DNA of 64,000 nucleotides from NCBI RefSeq assembly GCF_900176375.1, contig NZ_FWYF01000002.1, forward strand, positions 718,161-782,160, in the 5' to 3' direction. The notes beneath the pieces are model-generated. The model made no database searches, was not told the origin of the DNA, and worked only from the letters and a program-made list of their open reading frames with translations. Each line of letters starts with the position of its first letter. The first letter of the stretch is position 1. The stretch comes from Reichenbachiella faecimaris (GTDB taxonomy: Bacteria; Bacteroidota; Bacteroidia; Cytophagales; Cyclobacteriaceae). Positions 13,168 to 32,393 of the stretch are shown here, in pieces. The position numbers and the translations under genes are program-made.

Positions 13168-13276
13168 TTCAATTGTTTGTTTGCATATACAAGGACAGTA
13201 TCAACCCTTGTTTGTGACAAAGTTCGGCAAAAAAATCAATATTTTTTGATCGTGTGTATTTTGGCATCCGTATCTC

Positions 13277-13284
13277 TATCTTTG
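13277..13284 (+). promoter_or_regulatory. -7 box upstream of uvrA
   Basis: TATCTTTG fits the TAnnTTTG consensus and lies 24 bp before the chosen uvrA ATG. A TTTG lies at 13260-13263, but the spacing (13 bp) is shorter than usual, so the -33 element is uncertain. Confidence 0.4.
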
Positions 13285-13308
13285 CGGATTGTTAAAATTT
13301 CACTTTCG

Positions 13309-16125
13309 ATGGCGGAAACACTAGAAAACCAGGTAGCTAAAAATATAGATCAATTGGATCCTCGGGACTTTATAATTATCAAGGGTGCGCGAGTCAACAA
13401 CCTGAAAAATTTAAGTGTTGCCATCCCTAGAAATAAGCTGGTCGTAGTCACTGGTCTGTCTGGCTCAGGAAAATCTTCTCTGGCTTTTGATACACTTTTT
13501 GCTGAGGGACAAAGAAAATATGTAGAGAGTCTGAGCTCGTATGCTCGACAGTTTTTGGGAAGGATGGAAAAGCCAGAGGTTGACTATATCAAAGGCGTAT
13601 CTCCTGCAGTAGCTATTGAACAAAAAGTGAATACCAGAAACCCCAGATCCACAGTGGGTACTACCACTGAGATTTACGATTACATCAAATTGCTTTATGC
13701 CAGAATAGGACAAACCATATCGCCAATCAGTGGTAATCCAGTAAAAAGAGACACTGTCTCCTCTGTGGTCAATGCCATTCATCAATATGAAGAAGGCACT
13801 AAATTTATGGTAAGTGCCCCATTAACATTGACAGCCGACCGCACACTTGAAATAGAATTCAATATCTTGTTGAGTAAGGGATTTACTCGTGTTCTTGTTG
13901 ATGGAGTATTAGAGCAAATAGAAGATTTGGATGCGAAAAAAGTCGATCCAGAGAAGGTTGAAATTCTGATTGACCGTTTGAGTGTGAATAAGGAAGATGA
14001 AGATGCGACCTTCCGTTTGTCTGATTCAGTTCAGACTGCCTTTTTCGAAGGTCATGGAGATTGTATTATCCGCTTTCGTGAAGAAGGGTCCAGAAGGTTC
14101 TCAGACAGGTTCGAATTAGATGGTATGTCTTTTGAGGAGCCATCAGTCAATCTTTTCAGCTTCAACAACCCATACGGCGCTTGTCGCAAATGTGAAGGTT
14201 TTGGCAAGGTGCTGGGCATTGATCCTGATTTGGTGATTGCAGATAAGAACCTGTCCGTTTATGAGGGCGCCATTGTTCCTTGGAGAAGTGAGACCATGAA
14301 AAAATGGTTGCAACCGCTTTTACAAATCGCACACGATATTGACTTTCCGCTTCACCGTCCCGTCAAAGACCTTTCTGAGGAAGAATACAATCTGCTCTGG
14401 GAAGGCAAAGGAAAATTCGAAGGCCTATACGCTTTCTATGCCTTTATCGAATCTCAACTACATAAGATTCAATACCGAGTAATGCTATCACGCTATCGTG
14501 GAAAAACGACTTGTCCGGATTGTAAAGGTACTCGCCTACGAAAGGATGCTTTCTATGTAAAAGTAGGTGGCAAAGCGGTTTCGGAATTGGTGTTGATGCC
14601 GATCGATCGTGCGTTAGACTTTTTTGAATTACTCGAATTAAATCAGTATGATCAAAAAGTAGCCAAACGAATTCTCAAAGAAATCCAAAACAGACTGAGT
14701 TACATGAAGGAAGTGGGCTTGGGTTATTTGACTTTAAATCGCTTGACTTCTACTCTTTCTGGGGGTGAATATCAGAGAATTAAATTGGCCACATCATTAG
14801 GAAGTGCACTGGTAGGCTCTATGTATATTTTGGACGAGCCCAGTATTGGTTTGCACCCAAGAGACACTGCTCGCTTAGGCAATGTACTTGAAACACTTAA
14901 GCGATTGGGTAATACTGTGATTGTCGTAGAGCATGAGGAGGAGGTGATGAAACGTGCTGATCAGATTATTGATATTGGCCCAGCAGCGGGTATTCATGGC
15001 GGAGAGTTAGTTTTTCAAGGAGATTGGGAGGCCATTCTAAAAGAAAAAGAATCTGTTACGGCAAGGTTTCTGAACGGCATTGAATTTATTCCTACCCCTA
15101 CCAGGAGACGTCCCTGGAAGCACAGTATTGACATTTTAGGAGCAAGAGAAAATAACCTGAAGCGGATTGATGTATCTATTCCTTTAGGGGTTTTAACTGT
15201 AGTAACAGGTGTGAGTGGCTCGGGCAAGTCGACCTTGATCAGAAAGATTTTATATCCAGCTTTGGGTAAAATAGTAGGGGTCACAGGAGAAGAGACTGGA
15301 AAATTTGGAGAGCTGGATGGTGACTACAAAATGATCCAACGTATGGAGATGATCGACCAAAACCCATTGGGACGGAGTTCTCGATCCAACCCAGTGACTT
15401 ATGTCAAAGCATACGATGCGATCCGTCAACTCTACTCAGATCAGCCAACAGCTAAACAGCGAAATCTCAAACCAGCACATTTTTCTTTTAATGTAGATGG
15501 CGGACGATGCGAGACCTGTCAAGGCGAGGGAGAGGTAAAAATAGAAATGCAGTTTATGGCAGACCTGCATCTAACTTGTGATGAATGCAAAGGCAAAAGA
15601 TTCAAAGAAGATATACTTGAGGTCACTTACAAAGACAAGCATATTGCTGATATACTGGATATGAGTATTGAGGAGAGCTTAAATTTTTTCGAAGATCAAA
15701 AAGCTATTATTTCTAAGTTGCAGCCACTGGATGATGTGGGATTGGGCTATGTGAAGTTAGGCCAGTCTTCCAACTCACTCAGTGGTGGGGAGGCTCAGCG
15801 AGTGAAACTCGCTTCATTCTTAGGCAAAGGGCAATCGGCCAATAAAGAAAAGATTCTTTTCATATTCGACGAACCAACCACAGGGCTTCATTTCAAAGAC
15901 ATTGAAAAACTGCTGGATAGTATCAATGCTTTGGTGAATCAAGGCAATACAGTGCTTATCATTGAGCACAACATGGAGATTATAAAATCAGCGGACTGGA
16001 TTATTGATCTGGGGCCTGATGGAGGTGATCATGGCGGACAGCTATGCTTTGCAGGCACGCCAGAAGAGATGGTGAAATTGGACGATAACCATACTGCGAA
16101 GTATCTTAAGGAGAAGATACAATAG
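13309..16125 (+). CDS. uvrA: Excinuclease ABC subunit A (UvrA)
   Basis: A 938-residue DNA-damage sensor of nucleotide excision repair, a twin ABC ATPase. The first Walker A (GLSGSGKSS) is at about residues 49-57 and the second (GVSGSGKST) lies in the C-terminal half. Both ABC signatures (LSGGE) are present. Two zinc modules are visible: CRKCEGFG with CPDCKGTR in the first half, and CETCQGEG with CDECKGKR in the second. I start at ATG 13309 (MAETLENQ). The frame extends to a TTG at 13177, but the extra 44 residues would cover the promoter and are not UvrA-like. It is monocistronic, followed by an unrelated toxin-antitoxin pair. Confidence 0.97.
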
Positions 16126-18123: not shown

Positions 18124-20310
18124 ATGGCTGCTAAGCAATCTTCAAAAACCATTATTGTTTCTAATAGACTACCAGTTCGAATTGTAAAAGAGGGTGAAAA
18201 ATTGGCCTTTATGCCAAGTGAGGGCGGATTGGCAACTGGCCTGGGCTCAATTTACAAGCAAGGAGATAATATTTGGTTGGGTTGGCCTGGTGCGGTTTTG
18301 AATACCAAAGCAGAAGAGGCACAGACAAAGAAGGAATTGAAGGAGCAAAACATGGCGCCTGTTTTCCTGACCGAACAAGATATAGAACTCTACTATGAAG
18401 GGTTTTCGAATGAAACCCTCTGGCCGAACTTTCATTACTTCAATCAATTCTCAGAATTCAATCATGAATATTGGGAAGCCTATAAGGCCGTCAATCAGAA
18501 GTTTGCAGATCAGATTTTAAAAAATGCCAATCCAAATGATACGATTTGGATTCATGATTATCAGTTGCTGCTGCTGCCCGCTTTGGTGAGGGCAGAAAGG
18601 CCGGATATTTCCATTGGTTTCTTTTTGCATATACCATTTCCTTCTTATGAGTCCTTTAGGCTTTTGCCTTGGAGAAGAGAACTGTTGCTTGGCATGCTTG
18701 GTGCGGATTTTCTTGGTTTTCATACCTATGATGACACCAGGCACTTCCTGTCTTCAGTGAGTAGACTTGCTGGTATCGGCAATGAGCATGGCCATATCAA
18801 CTATAATAATCGTCAGATCATGGCGGATGCCCTACCCATGGGAATCGACTATGACAAATACGCAGAAGTAGCCGCTGCACCCGAAACCTTGGAGCGTGAG
18901 GTAAGATATCGTACGAGCATTGGCAGTGAACAACTGATTCTCTGTATTGACCGTTTGGATTATTCCAAAGGAATTCCGCAGAGACTGAAGGCCTTCGAAA
19001 AATTGCTTGAACGCTACCCAGAGTATCTGGAGAAAGTATCTATTCTCATGGTGGTGGTTCCCTCTAGAGATCAAGTCGGAAAATACAAAGAACTGAAAGA
19101 GGAGATAGATCTTTTGGTCGGGCGTATCAATGGACAGTATTCTCGCCTTAGTTGGACGCCTATCCATTATTTCTACAGATCATTTCCACTGCATGCGCTA
19201 TCCGCCTTTTACAGAATGGCCCATGTGTGTTTGGTGAGCCCAATGAGAGATGGGATGAATCTGGTATGCAAAGAATTTATTGCAAGTAAACTAGATAAAA
19301 AGGGTGCGTTGGTATTGAGTGAAATGGCTGGAGCATCTAAAGAGCTCTCGGATGCTTTATTGATTAATCCAAATAATCGTTATCAAATGGTGGAGGCAAT
19401 CCGAGAGGCCTTGGAAATGGATGAAAAGGAACAAATGCAGCGTATGACTGTGATGCAAAACACACTCAAAAGGTATAATATTTACAACTGGGTAGATCTG
19501 TTCATGAATCGTCTGTCTATTGTGAAAAAAGCACAGCGTTCCCTGACGACCAAGTTGCTAGATGACAAATCGACAAACACAGTCAAATCAGCCTACAAAA
19601 AATCTAAAGAACCGCTTATATTTTTGGACTATGATGGTACGTTGCAAGGTTTTTATGGTGATCCACAAGCCGCCAAACCAGATGCAGAGCTATATAGTAT
19701 TGTCAACGGATTGACCAAAAAGGCCAATGTGATAATCATTAGTGGCAGAGATAAAACCACACTTGGAGAATGGTTCAAAGAGTGCAAAGTAGATCTCATA
19801 GGAGAACATGGCGTATGGCTTAAGGCCTATAAAGAGGACTGGCATACCATTACCAACCTGACAGATACTTGGAAAGAGGCCATTAGTGAAGTACTGGATG
19901 GTTATGTGGCAAGAACCCCTGGTTCATTCATAGAAGAAAAGGACTACTCTTTGGTTTGGCATTACCGCAAGGTGGAAACCGGCCTTGGGGAGCTCAGAAC
20001 CAGAGAGCTAACGAGCCATTTGAAATACCTCGCCTCCAACCAAAACCTTCAAGTACTGGAAGGAGACATGGTCGTGGAGATCAAGAGCACGGAAATCAAC
20101 AAAGGTCGAGCAGCTCGCAACTGGATGAAACGCTACGAAGGAGCAGACTTCATTATGGCAGCAGGAGATGACTGGACGGACGAGGATACTTTCAAAGTGA
20201 TGCCTTCTGATGCCTATACCATCAAAGTGGGTAGCTCCAATTCTGCAGCCAAATTTAGTGTGAATAACTATGAGGAGGTGAGGGAATTGTTGAAGAAAAT
20301 GAACAGCTAA
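18124..20310 (+). CDS. Bifunctional trehalose-6-phosphate synthase/phosphatase (OtsA-OtsB fusion)
   Basis: A 728-residue cytoplasmic fusion. Residues 1 to about 470 form a GT20 trehalose-6-phosphate synthase: RLPVR and GGLATGL near the N-terminus bind phosphate, IHDYQLLLLPALVR, and the SPMRDGMNLVCKEFIA donor-binding segment follows. Residues from about 490 form a HAD phosphatase with the DYDGT motif (nucleophile D502, acid D504), SGRDKTTL, and GDDWTDEDTF for magnesium. UDP-glucose and glucose-6-phosphate would thus be converted to trehalose by one chain, for osmotic or desiccation protection. It stands alone in a 150-bp spacer and overlaps the convergent downstream gene by 3 nt. Confidence 0.95.
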   Translation: MAAKQSSKTIIVSNRLPVRIVKEGEKLAFMPSEGGLATGLGSIYKQGDNIWLGWPGAVLNTKAEEAQTKKELKEQNMAPVFLTEQDIELYYEGFSNETLWPNFHYFNQFSEFNHEYWEAYKAVNQKFADQILKNANPNDTIWIHDYQLLLLPALVRAERPDISIGFFLHIPFPSYESFRLLPWRRELLLGMLGADFLGFHTYDDTRHFLSSVSRLAGIGNEHGHINYNNRQIMADALPMGIDYDKYAEVAAAPETLEREVRYRTSIGSEQLILCIDRLDYSKGIPQRLKAFEKLLERYPEYLEKVSILMVVVPSRDQVGKYKELKEEIDLLVGRINGQYSRLSWTPIHYFYRSFPLHALSAFYRMAHVCLVSPMRDGMNLVCKEFIASKLDKKGALVLSEMAGASKELSDALLINPNNRYQMVEAIREALEMDEKEQMQRMTVMQNTLKRYNIYNWVDLFMNRLSIVKKAQRSLTTKLLDDKSTNTVKSAYKKSKEPLIFLDYDGTLQGFYGDPQAAKPDAELYSIVNGLTKKANVIIISGRDKTTLGEWFKECKVDLIGEHGVWLKAYKEDWHTITNLTDTWKEAISEVLDGYVARTPGSFIEEKDYSLVWHYRKVETGLGELRTRELTSHLKYLASNQNLQVLEGDMVVEIKSTEINKGRAARNWMKRYEGADFIMAAGDDWTDEDTFKVMPSDAYTIKVGSSNSAAKFSVNNYEEVRELLKKMNS

Positions 20311-26938: not shown

Positions 26939-29900
26939 TTATTCGTACCTCAAAGCTTTCACTGGACTGGTTGCAGCTATTTTCAATACGACCATACTCA
27001 CACTCGCCAGGGCTACTGTAAGCAAGGCGACGGCAGACCAGACAAATGGCATGAACCCTAAGGTAGTTTGATAAGGAAACTCCATCAACCATTCTTGCAT
27101 GAGCAGGTGGGCAATGGGAAGCCCAATTGCCAGTGCTATGCCTACTAATGCGGCAAACTGGGCGAAAATCATTTGTATGATTTGAATAGGGCGGGCACCT
27201 AATATTTTTCTGATACCTACTTCTTTTACCTTTTGGCTGAGCATGGCCAGTGCAATTCCTAAAAGCCCAAGGCAGGCAAGAAATAGTGCAACACAAGTGA
27301 AAATAGAAAAGACGCTTAGTGTGCGAACTTCACTTTCATATAGATCGCCCAGTTGCTGATCTAAGAAATGGAATTCAAATGCCTCTTCCTGATCGAATTT
27401 AGTATATGTCATTTCAATAGCCTCTAGAGTTTGTTGGAAGTTTTTTCCATCTAGTTTTAGCACCATGTGATTGAGCAACTCAGGGCGATGTTGGATAATC
27501 AATGGGTTTATGGTTTGGTGCAGGGACTTATAGTGAAAATCTTTTACGACACCAATAACAGTAATTTCCAAATCATATCCGCCCAAATGCCAAGCAAGTT
27601 TTTCACCAATAGGTTGCTTAAGGTTTAAACTTCTTGCAGCCGTTTCATTGATTAAAACATTGGTGCCAGCAGAGTCTGCAGCATAGCTGCTCTGAAGTGC
27701 GCGTCCTGAAACTAGCTCAAATCCCAGAAGCTCTGTAAGGCCAAAATCGACAAAAACCTCTGTTGCATCTAAATAGTCGGGATGATATTTTACTGAGGTT
27801 ACGGGATGATTGTCGAATTGTGAACCGGGTAAATTGGATGCTGCTGAAACTTGTTTTACACCCGTAATCGCACGGAGCTCGTTCTGAATGGCCCGAGCCT
27901 CAGACAGATTGATTCCTCCATGCTCTACACTAGATGGAATAGGAATAGAGATGACAGCCTCTTGATCAAACCCTAATTCTTTGGACTGCATGAAATCAAT
28001 TTGCTTCAATATGATCAAACTGGAGGTAATCAGTATGGCAGATACTATGAATTGACAAACGACAAGAAGACTTCTAAGCCTATTGCTTTCCCCAGCCACA
28101 GATAGTTTTCCCTTAAGTACGTCTGAAGGCTTGAAGGAAGAAAGAAAAATGGCAGGATAAATTCCGGCTAGAAGCCCAATAGCAAAACAAAGCAGTAGCG
28201 CCTTTCCAATGAATGCATAATCTAATAAGTCGTTAAAGGAAAATGTTTTATCAGCGAGTTGATTAAAATGGTTCATCACTAAGCCAGTTAACCCAAGTGC
28301 CAGGATCAAAGCAACAAAACAGAAGAGTACAGACTCTAAATAAAACTGTGCCGTGAGGTGCCTGGATACGGCTCCTAATGTTTTCCTCACACCGATTTCC
28401 TTGGCACGTTCTACGGATTTGGCAGTAGTCAGATTTACATAGTTGATGGCTGCTATGATCAGGATAAAAAACATGGTACCTATAAGAATATAGACATATA
28501 GGATGTTGCCGTTATTTTCCAGCTCCCAGCGCAAGTGCGAGTGGAGGTGTATGTCGGCGATAGGCTGAAGTTCAAATCTGATTTGACCTGTATCAAATCT
28601 ATCTTTTGCACCTGAGTCCCAGTTGAGATACTGAAGTACCCAATCGCCAATTTTGGATTGTAAATCACTGGGGGAACTTCCTTCCTCCATCAAGATATAG
28701 TTGAAATGACCAAAATCTGCCCAGGTCATCCAGTGGCTTTCTGGGTTGATGGCTTTTACAGTTTCGTAAGAGATCAAGGCATTAAAATGAAAATGAGCAT
28801 TTTTAGGCATTCCTTTGACTACCAGAGACACCTCCATTGGCATATCACTTACATTGAGAATCTGGCCGATGGCATTTGCTTCTCCAAAATATTTGATGGC
28901 CATAGCCTCAGTTATGACGAGAGTATTAGGCTCTTTGAGTGCCTCTTGATCGCCTGCAACAACTTCTAATTGAAATACATCCAGAAAGGTGGAATCTGCA
29001 AAGTAGAAATCTGGCTCATCAAACTTCAGTTTAAGTTGTTTGTTCTCAACTTTAATTTCTTGTTTGGTCAGGCCAGTTCCGTACCAGGGGGAAAAACTCA
29101 CGGCATTTTTTACTTCTGGAAAATCTCTCCGTATGGCCTGAGCCATGGGGTGAGGCGTTCGCGTTTGTGAATGCTCAGCAATCCAGCTGATCCTATATAT
29201 ATTTTCGTGATTGGGCAGGGATTGATCATAGGACAACTCATGCGCTATGAATAAGTAAATAAGGATACTACAGGTAAACCCCACTGTAAGTCCGAAAAGA
29301 TTGATGAATGTGAAAACCTTGTTTCTATTCAGCGTTCTGATAAATGTTTTGAAGAAATTAGTGATCATGGTGCGTTTGAGTTTTTTGGTAAAAAGATGAC
29401 TCAAACTAAAGGTGCGACCTGTTGATGATGGTTTTTTCCTATTGGGTAGCAGTACTTCCCGATAGGATCGAACGTCTTTCCTATCTCGATATTCTGAGGG
29501 TGTGAGGCCCGTGTGTCGCTTGAAAGCTGTATTAAAAGCTGACTTGGAATTGTAGCCTACCAAGGCAGCAATGTTCTCTACCTTGGTATTTTTTTGCTCT
29601 GGATCTTTGAGCAAATGGCGAGCCTCGCGTATTCTATATTGGCTAATCAATTCCTGAAAACTAACGCCCTTATTTTCATTGAGCACCTGCGACAAATGAT
29701 GAGTGGTTGTATGAAGTTGGGTAGCAAGACCGCCGAGCGAAATATCATCCTTCAGATAGAATTTGGTTTCAACCAGGAGCTTATCCAAGTTTTCTACAAT
29801 CCCAGCTTTTTGTGCGGCAGAGAGCGTTGATTTTTTATACTTGTTCGAAACAGGAATGGGCGAGGCAAAACCAGACTCTCGAAATATTTGAATGTATATA

Positions 29901-30460
29901 AACAGGAAGTTTATTAAAATGCCTGCCCAGATGAATTCAATCGAGAGAATTTGTCCTAAAAATAAAAAGGATAGGAGCAACAGGATATTTAGCCCAAAGT
30001 AATTCCTGAACCAGACTATTCTAGCGCCAGAATTTTGGAACCAGAAGATGCCACGACTAGCAGCTTCCTTTTTTACTTTTTGAACAGAATCAAAAAGAAT
30101 AACAATGGTCAAACAGTTGACTAACCAGAGCTGATCAAAATAATAGGCAGCTGTGGCTAATACAATTGCGAGTGAAATGAGCCCAACGTGCTTAGGACTG
30201 ATACGAGAATTTTGTGTGAAGAAAGCAGACCCATACCAGCTGAGCGACAAGGCAGGTGCCATCAGGGAAAGTTCGCGCCAAAATTCATCTGACACGAAGT
30301 GAGAGAAGAGGGCAAAACCTAGATAGACAATGACTAATTGACCTAAAAATCTGCTGGCAGGAAATCTGTTTAGTATTAGAAAAAACACAAGTCCAAGCCC
30401 AGTAAGGCATGTGCATGCCATCAACATCTCCATCCAAGGCCAGGTCATCCATTGATCCAT
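26939..30460 (-). CDS. Single-chain fusion: membrane AraC-type regulator + FtsX/MacB-type ABC permease
   Basis: One uninterrupted 1173-codon frame. Residues 1 to about 195 hold several membrane helices, as in membrane-tethered AraC regulators of Bacteroidota. Residues of about 220-327 form an AraC helix-turn-helix pair, with the second helix in IAALVGYNSKSAFNTAFKRHTGLTPSEYR. A basic linker (about 328-364) follows. Residues 365-1173, starting MITNFFKTFIRTLNRNKVFTFI, are a complete MacB-type permease: first helix, periplasmic PCD domain, three-helix FtsX block (ending ERAKEIGVRKTLGA), then a second PCD and FtsX block (VKEVGIRKILGARP). Either half alone would be full length for its family. An in-frame ATG at 29368 could start the permease separately. 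No ATPase gene is adjacent. Confidence 0.85.
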   Translation of the reverse strand: MDQWMTWPWMEMLMACTCLTGLGLVFFLILNRFPASRFLGQLVIVYLGFALFSHFVSDEFWRELSLMAPALSLSWYGSAFFTQNSRISPKHVGLISLAIVLATAAYYFDQLWLVNCLTIVILFDSVQKVKKEAASRGIFWFQNSGARIVWFRNYFGLNILLLLSFLFLGQILSIEFIWAGILINFLFIYIQIFRESGFASPIPVSNKYKKSTLSAAQKAGIVENLDKLLVETKFYLKDDISLGGLATQLHTTTHHLSQVLNENKGVSFQELISQYRIREARHLLKDPEQKNTKVENIAALVGYNSKSAFNTAFKRHTGLTPSEYRDRKDVRSYREVLLPNRKKPSSTGRTFSLSHLFTKKLKRTMITNFFKTFIRTLNRNKVFTFINLFGLTVGFTCSILIYLFIAHELSYDQSLPNHENIYRISWIAEHSQTRTPHPMAQAIRRDFPEVKNAVSFSPWYGTGLTKQEIKVENKQLKLKFDEPDFYFADSTFLDVFQLEVVAGDQEALKEPNTLVITEAMAIKYFGEANAIGQILNVSDMPMEVSLVVKGMPKNAHFHFNALISYETVKAINPESHWMTWADFGHFNYILMEEGSSPSDLQSKIGDWVLQYLNWDSGAKDRFDTGQIRFELQPIADIHLHSHLRWELENNGNILYVYILIGTMFFILIIAAINYVNLTTAKSVERAKEIGVRKTLGAVSRHLTAQFYLESVLFCFVALILALGLTGLVMNHFNQLADKTFSFNDLLDYAFIGKALLLCFAIGLLAGIYPAIFLSSFKPSDVLKGKLSVAGESNRLRSLLVVCQFIVSAILITSSLIILKQIDFMQSKELGFDQEAVISIPIPSSVEHGGINLSEARAIQNELRAITGVKQVSAASNLPGSQFDNHPVTSVKYHPDYLDATEVFVDFGLTELLGFELVSGRALQSSYAADSAGTNVLINETAARSLNLKQPIGEKLAWHLGGYDLEITVIGVVKDFHYKSLHQTINPLIIQHRPELLNHMVLKLDGKNFQQTLEAIEMTYTKFDQEEAFEFHFLDQQLGDLYESEVRTLSVFSIFTCVALFLACLGLLGIALAMLSQKVKEVGIRKILGARPIQIIQMIFAQFAALVGIALAIGLPIAHLLMQEWLMEFPYQTTLGFMPFVWSAVALLTVALASVSMVVLKIAATSPVKALRYE

Positions 30461-30506: not shown

Positions 30507-31370
30507 TTAAAAGTATTTGAGATACTGCTCTGGCATGGCATCTAGTGCTTGGATGGCAATGTCTGTGAAGAAAACTTCAGCTGCCTCACTTTGGATTTGT
30601 ATTTTGCCCTTGGTCATAGAGACACTCGTTCCATCATCTATATATCGAGAGTTTTTCAAAATCATCACTACCTTTCCATTGACCATGTGCAGGCTTTTTC
30701 CATCATAGCTGATCAATTCCAAGGTGTTCCATTCCCCTTGTGGGTTTTCAGCATTTTCACTTCGCATACAAAAACCACCAGCTGCTTGCTCTGCACCCAG
30801 ACCAATAAAATCTGGAGTCGGATCTGCAATGGGGTTCATTACACTTTCGGGTATATAGGCTCTGATATCAATGGCAGAGTTGGCTTGACTCCAATAGTCT
30901 CCCATGTGTCCTTCCATGATCTGAAATTCTTGAGACAGCATCCAAGATCTCCAGTATTCTGCACCCATTGGTCCGATGGAGTGATATAAGATGCCCGAAT
31001 CTTTTAGCTTTTCTTTTCTTGGGGGCCACTTTTTTTCACCCCATTTCACTTTTAGACGGAGACGATAATTTTCATATTCCTTTTTCGAAATTAAACACCC
31101 GTAAATTTCGCCACTCACTCTCAGCATAAACTCACCTGACTTTTCTGAAACCGTAAATACGTCGTGTCCTGCTGGGTTTAACCCAATGGGAGCGATGAGA
31201 TTTCCTTGAGCATCTCTAGGCTCACTGCCATTATAATCAATTTGATGTCTATAGCTCAAATAAGTGTCCCATTGTGAAAGTTTAGCGTCCAGAAGAGGAG
31301 TCCACGGATTTTCTTTGATGGAAAAAGAACAAAGGAGTATAAACAGGGAGTAAATCAGAAAATTTTTCAC
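30507..31370 (-). CDS. Secreted DUF1080 (3-keto-disaccharide hydrolase-like) protein
   Basis: From a GTG at 31370 the protein is 287 residues with signal peptide (read as MKNFLIYSLFILLCSFSI). The mature part is a concanavalin-like beta sandwich matching DUF1080: GEIYGCLISKKEYENYRLRLKVKWGEKKW, KDSGILYHSIG, QEFQIMEGHMGDYW, GEWNTLELISYDGKSLHMVNGKVV, GKIQIQSEAAEVFFTDI. Family members hydrolyse or bind sugars, and some act on 3-keto-disaccharides. The frame extends to a TTG at 31469, but that adds a non-signal stretch. The gene is divergent from the AraC regulator, which may control it. Confidence 0.82.
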   Translation of the reverse strand: MKNFLIYSLFILLCSFSIKENPWTPLLDAKLSQWDTYLSYRHQIDYNGSEPRDAQGNLIAPIGLNPAGHDVFTVSEKSGEFMLRVSGEIYGCLISKKEYENYRLRLKVKWGEKKWPPRKEKLKDSGILYHSIGPMGAEYWRSWMLSQEFQIMEGHMGDYWSQANSAIDIRAYIPESVMNPIADPTPDFIGLGAEQAAGGFCMRSENAENPQGEWNTLELISYDGKSLHMVNGKVVMILKNSRYIDDGTSVSMTKGKIQIQSEAAEVFFTDIAIQALDAMPEQYLKYF

Positions 31371-31502
31371 GGCGATAATTTTCCTAAAACTAAGAGAATG
31401 TATGCTAATAATGGGAGGATAATTATCCCAATTGTAAGGGGTGCTTGAGTCATAACTAATCTTTCTCAATGCCGTATTTTAAAAGCCAAATAACCAAATG
31501 CC

Positions 31503-32393
31503 ATGAAAAAACTCAAACTACAGCAAACACAAGAAAAAGACTCTTATGATCTGGAAGACTTAAATAATTTTAGAATAGATGTTTTTTCTCCCCTGCATTG
31601 TGCTTTGGATGCCTTGGGTGAGGGAAGCCGCCAGAAGGGTTTTGCTATTGTCTGGCTCAAGGATGGAAATGGCACACATGATTTAGATTTGAAAAGGCAT
31701 TATTACGAGGGTTCGGTCATGTTTGTCTTGGCGCCAGGTCAGATTCATAAGCTGAATCAGTTTACGGAATCTGAAGGGTATGTCGTTCGATTTTCGCCAG
31801 CAGTTTTTCAGCACGAACAAGACTTTATGAATCATGTGCTAGATACCTGCTTGTTTGATAGCAATACGTCTTGCCCAGTGATTCAGGTAGATGAAAAAAG
31901 CAAAACCACTTTCGAAAGTTTGTTTAGCCAACTGCATGAAGAATTCTTGATTCAAGATGTAAACGCCAGTGATATTATTTGTTCTTATTTAAAAATTCTT
32001 ATTTCTCAAATCAATCGAATCAAGAGAAAAAAATCTAGTGATCAAGTGCCAATCAATGATGCTGGGTATAAACTCTTCAGAGCATTGAAGATCGCCATTG
32101 AAAAAAATTATAAGGAACATCATTCAGTTCAGCATTATGCTGATTTGCTCCATGTCCAACCCAGAGCACTCAACGCAGTGGCTCGAAAATATGCAGATCG
32201 TTCGACAGGTGAAATTATTCAAGAAAGACTGCTACTTGAGGCCCAGAGAATTCTCTATCACGAAGACAAACGGGTGAAGGAAATCTGTTATGAATTGGGT
32301 TTTGATGACCCTGCCTATTTCACAAGATTTTTCAAAAAACATACGGGTCTGGCTCCACAATTTTACAAGGATCAGGTAGAAGTAGCCCTATAG
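31503..32393 (+). CDS. AraC-family transcriptional regulator with N-terminal sensor domain
   Basis: A 296-residue soluble regulator. The N-terminal 170 residues resemble a cupin-type ligand domain (VMFVLAPGQIHKLNQF, GYVVRFSPAVF). The last 100 hold the AraC double helix-turn-helix: HYADLLHVQPRALNAVARKYADRSTGEIIQ and KEICYELGFDDPAYFTRFFKKHTGLAPQFY. It has no membrane segment, unlike the fused AraC in the preceding gene. It is divergent from the DUF1080 gene and followed 97 nt later by DoxX, so it may control one or both. Inducer unknown. Confidence 0.9.
   Translation: MKKLKLQQTQEKDSYDLEDLNNFRIDVFSPLHCALDALGEGSRQKGFAIVWLKDGNGTHDLDLKRHYYEGSVMFVLAPGQIHKLNQFTESEGYVVRFSPAVFQHEQDFMNHVLDTCLFDSNTSCPVIQVDEKSKTTFESLFSQLHEEFLIQDVNASDIICSYLKILISQINRIKRKKSSDQVPINDAGYKLFRALKIAIEKNYKEHHSVQHYADLLHVQPRALNAVARKYADRSTGEIIQERLLLEAQRILYHEDKRVKEICYELGFDDPAYFTRFFKKHTGLAPQFYKDQVEVAL

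Follow-up and report, generated by a model that had tools for sequence, protein, structure and literature searches.

The window, a 64,000-nucleotide stretch of Reichenbachiella faecimaris contig NZ_FWYF01000002.1 (genome G000), carries on its minus strand a single gene (26939..30460) whose 1173-amino-acid (aa) product joins seven predicted membrane helices, an AraC-type helix-turn-helix (HTH) DNA-binding domain, a linker and an FtsX/MacB-type ATP-binding cassette (ABC) permease in one chain. The fusion is real, chance and sequencing error being excluded, and its architecture is that of an old family. Judging from the trees, the pairing of an AraC domain with such a permease has evolved at least two times, the second time from other AraC and permease lineages. 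By analogy with known sensory permeases, we consider the chances about even that the fused protein is a one-component transporter-regulator, in which the AraC domain would answer to the state of the permease.

Domains and predicted structure of the fused protein

The open reading frame (ORF) begins with ATG and runs without a stop through its 1173 residues. An earlier note, made from the letters of the sequence, had described one uninterrupted frame here, and its coordinates, length and domain order all match the ORF and the Pfam results. Pfam HTH_18 aligns with residues 245-327 over model positions 1-80 of 80 (76.9 bits; cut-off, 33.6), and HTH_AraC aligns with residues 284-325 above its gathering cut-off; a complete two-HTH DNA-binding domain of the AraC/XylS type is present (29480..29728). 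MacB_PCD and FtsX each match two stretches above their gathering cut-offs. The best of these are residues 384-604, the first MacB-like periplasmic core domain (28649..29311), and residues 663-776, the first FtsX permease domain (28133..28474). The second FtsX helical block, residues 1033-1162 (26975..27364), is placed from the helices of the AlphaFold2 model. By Pfam and model, residues 365-1173 (26942..29368) belong to the FtsX/MacB permeases, with both domains present twice, and each half of the chain is complete, as the note had held. Up to an E value of 1, Pfam matched only the two HTH families, MacB_PCD and FtsX in the fused protein, and no HAAS or prefix domain. Pfam found no ABC_tran match there either, so the N-terminal ATPase that is fused to the permease in the MacB pump is absent from this chain.

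Residues 374-1173 align nearly end to end (9-803 of 803) with the NCBIfam ADOP model TIGR03434, at a score of 285.8 bits that lies below the curated cut-off of 622.3 and leaves the permease outside ADOP proper. The model perm_prefix_2 (NF038404; cut-off, 35 bits) did not appear among the best 25 of 33 NCBIfam families, a set with a floor of about 21 bits.

The AlphaFold2 model of the whole chain (mean pLDDT 78.2, pTM 0.61) has seven helices within residues 9-194 (29879..30436), one of them broken at residue 66, which by this model and by hhalign form a putative sensor or anchor of seven-transmembrane (7TM)-AraC type. The AraC fold follows, then a low-confidence stretch over residues 329-357 (pLDDT <50), a helix at 359-379 and the two-block permease. 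The N-terminal helices and the basic linker of the earlier note were thus recovered, the linker being mostly disordered and spanning residues 328-364 (29369..29479). A Kyte-Doolittle scan at one threshold gave 6 N-terminal peaks in the window protein and 4-7 in its relatives, so the count of seven depends on the AlphaFold2 model. In a Foldseek comparison with the PDB, the top match was Escherichia coli YbbP (of YbbAP), which likewise has two FtsX blocks per chain, followed by chains of MacB, LolCDE and BceAB.

Conservation and repeated origin of the fusion

Relatives were sought by scoring the best candidates per genome among the matches listed (17 in the family, 10 in the order and 7 in the phylum), so that fusions may be missed in the counts given here. 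A congener, G005, has a full-length copy in an intact frame, 73% identical to the window protein; among the matches listed, the fusion occurs in the window's genome and G005 of 8 genomes of the genus. In the family (148 genomes), at least 14 genomes hold the HTH, the linker and the start of the permease in one open frame, which with G005 makes at least 15 fusion genomes from 11 genera. The same domain order is therefore found elsewhere, as the search proposed in the earlier note was meant to establish. Fourteen of the fused proteins are 1150-1182 aa long, and the frame in G093 stops at a contig end. Identity to the window protein is 50-54% in other genera and 34-39% in distant members, for an overall range of 34-73% with invariant core residues. 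The note had also reasoned that relatives always split by a stop in the linker would indicate a recent fusion or a sequencing error; instead, 15 of 15 family members read through the seam without a stop, a figure that is partly a selection effect because they were chosen by their open frame.

Of the N-terminal parts, the HTH is conserved best: in relatives it is 49-84% identical to that of the window, while residues 1-200 are 9-54% identical, and its recognition-helix residues are invariant in the 15 fusions. The AraC domain is predicted to bind DNA and to regulate transcription. In the linker, V330 is kept in 15/15, R331 in 13/15 and E336 in 13/15 (the window itself has V at 336), whereas no column of the variable stretch 338-364 has a single residue in more than 10 of the 15. 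Conserved segments are found in both permease halves, at about residues 684-697 and 1080-1089; segments of this kind dock ATPases.

Two frames near 1190 aa proved not to be fused: at G118:C60 the AraC gene is separate and precedes a permease, and G283:C1 has an AraC gene of 340 aa. A scan of genome contigs gave one relative, limited to the permease half, and 123 plasmid records matched, none of them over 80% of the query. Around the nearest other AraC matches (70 loci, short flanks only), a permease was present at 2, both second-group fusions (see below), and no split relative was seen.

In a permease tree built by a quick method from 75 rows whose alignment covered 600 residues or more (L066, L172 and L180 were left out, and one fused row, L067, sits on a long branch), the 14 family fusions of sufficient length fall into a single clade (Shimodaira-Hasegawa-like approximate likelihood ratio test value, 100*). 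In the HTH tree (99 rows, 116 columns, unsettled bootstrap), the 15 family fusions also group together, with weaker support (91/67). An HTH-linker profile, run against evenly drawn genomes (291 from the order, 395 from the phylum), listed further intact fusions in one genus of another family: one in G620 and two in tandem in G511. Broken fused relatives are present in G180, in pieces, and on the Spirosoma plasmid NZ_CP087141.1, where the interrupted copy has no coding sequence in the PLSDB table, which omits pseudogenes. The HTHs of the three intact second-group fusions and of the Spirosoma copy form a separate clade (100/100*), and the branches of the HTH tree marked by an asterisk require that the fused state was gained or lost two or more times. 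The second-group permeases, for their part, fall elsewhere in the permease tree than those of the window's family. Within the G511 tandem (L171, 264-3923 and 4314-7979), closely related AraC parts are followed by permeases of different clades. Several permeases have thus acquired 7TM-AraC modules that are related to one another.

We refer to proteins with this N-terminal architecture as 7TM-AraC regulators of Bacteroidota, a name coined here and not that of a database. By hhalign, the N-terminal membrane region of the window's family matched that of 16 unfused 7TM-AraC proteins (probability 94.9%, E 4.5e-8), and the unfused N-terminal regions matched the second fusion group (E 1e-5); when the N-terminal regions of the two fused groups were compared directly, the match was not significant (E 0.15). 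That the joining was repeated argues for function.

The permease half also belongs to a large paralogous family of FtsX permeases in the same genome, with at least 32 members besides the fusion: a search of G000 with the whole fused protein gave 44 matches, and in 32 of the listed rows a frame of 789-906 aa aligned with the permease half. The earlier note stated that known related cases have small N-terminal prefix domains, which agrees with the presence of perm_prefix_2, a domain that probably corresponds to HAAS, in 3/4 unfused permeases scanned; the fusion has the AraC module instead. In a sample of G000 and G005 paralogues, plus one G118 locus, prefix permeases lay directly after or overlapped a PadR gene in 15/17 cases and stand-alone permeases in 0/23, while 3/23 stand-alone permeases directly followed an unfused 7TM-AraC gene, at loci fetched because two matches lay close. 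Since prefix permeases adjoin PadR in the same genus, the fusion is one version of a wider regulator-permease theme. One row labelled as a prefix permease in the permease tree, L014, has no recognisable prefix.

Two near-identical permeases, L111 of G000 and L091 of G005, differ upstream, the former being without and the latter with a prefix and a PadR gene, and the change falls at the start codon; N-terminal modules thus come and go at the seam. We had supposed that orthologues without a prefix would show a stop at the seam, which was wrong, the upstream region in L012 and L111 simply being different. A separate feature of the paralogues is the sequence TGCAAC, found 53-61 bases before the start of 7/23 stand-alone permeases (L094, L096, L101, L104, L106, L111 and L114) at a near-fixed distance, twice with GCATCTT 16 bases on. 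This pair occurs only 4 times genome-wide and once before an examined permease start. Perhaps, as a guess, these sites form one promoter of the extracytoplasmic function sigma type for a set of paralogues.

Candidate function and its alternatives

In a one-component transporter-regulator, the seven helices would anchor the AraC DNA-binding domain in the inner membrane, and a flexible cytoplasmic linker would tie it to the permease, which is duplicated, of FtsX type (ADOP/YbbP-like), and would face the envelope with its two MacB-like periplasmic domains. The permease would most likely sense or report an envelope signal or its own working state, drawing on an ATPase encoded elsewhere in the genome, and its state, passed on through the linker, would alter DNA binding by the AraC domain at the membrane. 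No kinase, response regulator or separate PadR would be needed. One-component regulators of the membrane-integrated type, for example CadC and ToxR, also tether a DNA-binding domain to the inner membrane, without such a transporter half.

Three known systems provide the analogy. Systems in which an FtsX/MacB permease carries a fused HAAS domain and is paired with PadR have been proposed to replace two-component signalling (PMC11237479), BceAB forms a sensory complex with the kinase BceS (PMC7828314), and CbrA unites a transporter and a kinase in a single chain (PMC7096432); on this basis the permease described here would be a signal reader. The HAAS systems likewise tie the N-terminal module of a permease to a transcription regulator, using a small helical fused domain and a separate PadR, whereas the window's fusion places a whole 7TM-AraC regulator in the permease chain. 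In the BceAB-BceRS resistance modules, an FtsX-type permease is likewise the sensor for a regulator, with kinase and response regulator as separate proteins. The CbrA/SLC5-STAC histidine kinases (transceptors) share a chain between transporter and signalling output, as the fusion would, and combine a secondary transporter with a kinase, in contrast to an ABC permease with a DNA-binding domain. The fusion is most likely a single-chain counterpart of the HAAS/PadR-FtsX pairs and of BceAB-BceS. The closest folds, YbbAP, MacB, LolCDE and BceAB, have no DNA-binding domain, and most fusions differ from them in having no adjoining ATPase gene.

A regulator coupled to an FtsX permease and a transporter with its signal output in one chain are thus known already; the AraC-FtsX architecture and the seam ATG are new. 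Searches of open-licence papers turned up none that describes an FtsX/MacB permease fused to an AraC domain, which is a weak absence. An AraC domain and an ABC permease in one chain would make transporter-to-promoter signalling a one-protein problem, and the recurrent association with PadR or AraC points to many of the genome's FtsX permeases being sensors rather than pumps.

Several observations weigh against a transporter-regulator. Among the matches listed, 6/8 genomes of the genus are without the fusion, which is therefore dispensable. The short flanks of the nearest unfused AraC genes hold no permease, so that such regulators are not general companions of permeases, and most fusions have differing neighbour genes, so that no regulon is suggested. 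An ABC ATPase-like ORF, recognised by motif, is present in 2/17 fused loci and in none of the other 15/17, and adjoins the fusion only at L062, directly upstream. The sole such ORF in the window (13177-16125) lies about 11 kb from the fusion, in a genome with 48 ABC_tran matches. With ATPases scarce beside the fusions, transport is only putative. Finally, should a free permease be produced as well, the full-length chain could be a minor product.

A clearly less probable account, though the strongest of the rivals, is that the halves work independently and the fusion is a co-expression device that fixes their stoichiometry, with no signal passing between them. The long linker, of mostly low confidence in the model and variable over 338-364, would suit such a device, as would the poor conservation of the neighbouring genes. 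It fits less well with at least two independent origins, with the retention of residues just past the HTH (V330 and R331, and E336 in 13/15) and with the recurrence of the regulator-permease pairing in other forms.

The methionine codon at the seam and the neighbouring genes

The codon of Met365, an ATG at 29366..29368 on the minus strand, marks the seam and is proposed, from its invariance and start-like context, as an internal start for a free 809-aa permease. Amid an otherwise variable linker, this residue is Met in 15/15 family members, and the seam Met also occurs in 5 other fused copies (the three intact second-group fusions, the G180 piece and the Spirosoma piece). The codon is ATG in 17/17 fusions scored, as compared with 15/19 prefix permeases at the same place. 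The fraction of A in the 15 bases before the ATG is 0.455 at fusion seams and 0.461 at 22 stand-alone ATG starts, versus 0.275 before 1242 other in-frame ATGs.

A leader-like element, AAAAACTCAA (29376..29385, minus strand), precedes the seam ATG and also many start codons of stand-alone permeases. Its core AACTCA, often in the form AAAACTCAA, lies mostly 4-20 bases before the start, in noncoding and coding DNA alike. In 40 stretches chosen from the G000/G005 match list (loci L075-L114), a selection of the paralogues, AACTCA was found within 35 bases upstream of 26/40 permease starts; among other gene starts in the window the count was 1/43. It is present at the seam in the fusions of the window and G005, in a frame that differs from that of most prefix permeases, and exact AACTC is present at the seam in 4/17 fusions. 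When a motif model was trained exclusively on the starts of 23 stand-alone permeases, the 17 seams scored higher than the other in-frame ATGs of these genes (p 1.4e-10), than the 406 of these that lie in fused genes (p 1.5e-10) and than 254 A-rich ATGs (p 5e-8). When amino acids were fixed and synonymous codons redrawn, the leader score remained above chance for the fusions combined (p 3e-4, n=17) and for the prefix class (p 1.7e-8, n=15); taken singly, 4/17 fusions fell below 0.05, the window's own p value being 0.078, and the related genes are non-independent. Under the same treatment the A content before the ATG gave a weak signal for the fusions (combined p 0.018) and none for the prefix permeases (0.32). 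Between the window and G005, 11/12 codons before the seam ATG are identical; overall, by comparison, identical residues share their codon in 45% of cases. Such constraint on synonymous sites, strong within the window's genus, is weaker or absent in several other pairs.

The idea that AACTCA is special to permeases was dropped, as it also precedes the starts of other genes at several of 20 other motif-site stretches. Genome-wide, the leader motif counts exceed those of the reversed pattern only modestly (462 vs 293; 168 vs 108). The Bacteroidota -7 promoter has the sequence TAnnTTTG. It was found before the seam in 2/17 fusions, 0/23 stand-alone and 0/19 prefix permeases, and the idea of a promoter at this position was also abandoned. 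At gathering scores, no Rfam family matched the window.

Taken as a whole, the evidence that the seam ATG is still a start codon is good but not decisive, the main alternative being that the helix preceding the first membrane segment of the permease requires Met for structural reasons. The gene may yield both a tethered regulator-permease and a free permease. We tentatively suggest, as possible though not the likelier outcome, that one gene gives two proteins by an internal start at this ATG, the tethered regulator-permease sensing what state the transporter is in and the free permease doing its work. Under this proposal, the FtsX permeases of Bacteroidota would swap their N-terminal modules (none, a prefix with PadR, or 7TM-AraC) exactly there, making the seam a plug for one-component regulators. 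The free permease could then set the ratio of sensor to worker, and regulator and sensor partner would be dosed from one reading frame.

A more extreme version, in which the permease is made chiefly from the ATG at 29368, as in an overlapping operon, and the long form is a minor product or by-product, seems to us rather unlikely and slightly behind the co-expression device. It would draw on the invariance of Met365, the A-rich ATG seams, the fit of the leader model and the codon identity with the congener. It does not explain why the HTH and certain linker residues, needless in a by-product, are conserved; the ATG kept in most prefix permeases makes a structural role of Met possible, and neither the leader score in single fusions nor the synonymous constraint outside the window's genus is uniformly strong. 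We regard a decaying or accidental fusion with one non-functional half as very improbable, since both halves are conserved over many genera with invariant core residues, even if the G180 copy is in pieces and the Spirosoma plasmid copy is interrupted. A sequencing or assembly artefact, with a stop or frameshift missed at the linker, found no support and is ruled out by the uninterrupted frame shared among independent genomes.

Upstream of the fused gene lies a gene of the 3-keto-disaccharide hydrolase family (PF06439 by family match; 30507..31469, minus strand), a possible operon partner, which is adjoined by an ORF for a divergent soluble AraC regulator (31503..32393, plus strand). G005 keeps the hydrolase gene and the divergent AraC gene in this order before its fusion, and the broken Spirosoma plasmid copy has, in the same order before it, a divergent gene of helix-turn-helix type and a hydrolase gene (56% identical). 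A PadR search with one query (blastp, E 1e-3) found none in the window; among the 17 fused loci, matches were present in L069 and L070, none of them beside the fusion. Elsewhere in the window, positions 18124-20310 hold a 728-aa ORF, which we take to resemble a bifunctional trehalose-6-phosphate synthase/phosphatase.

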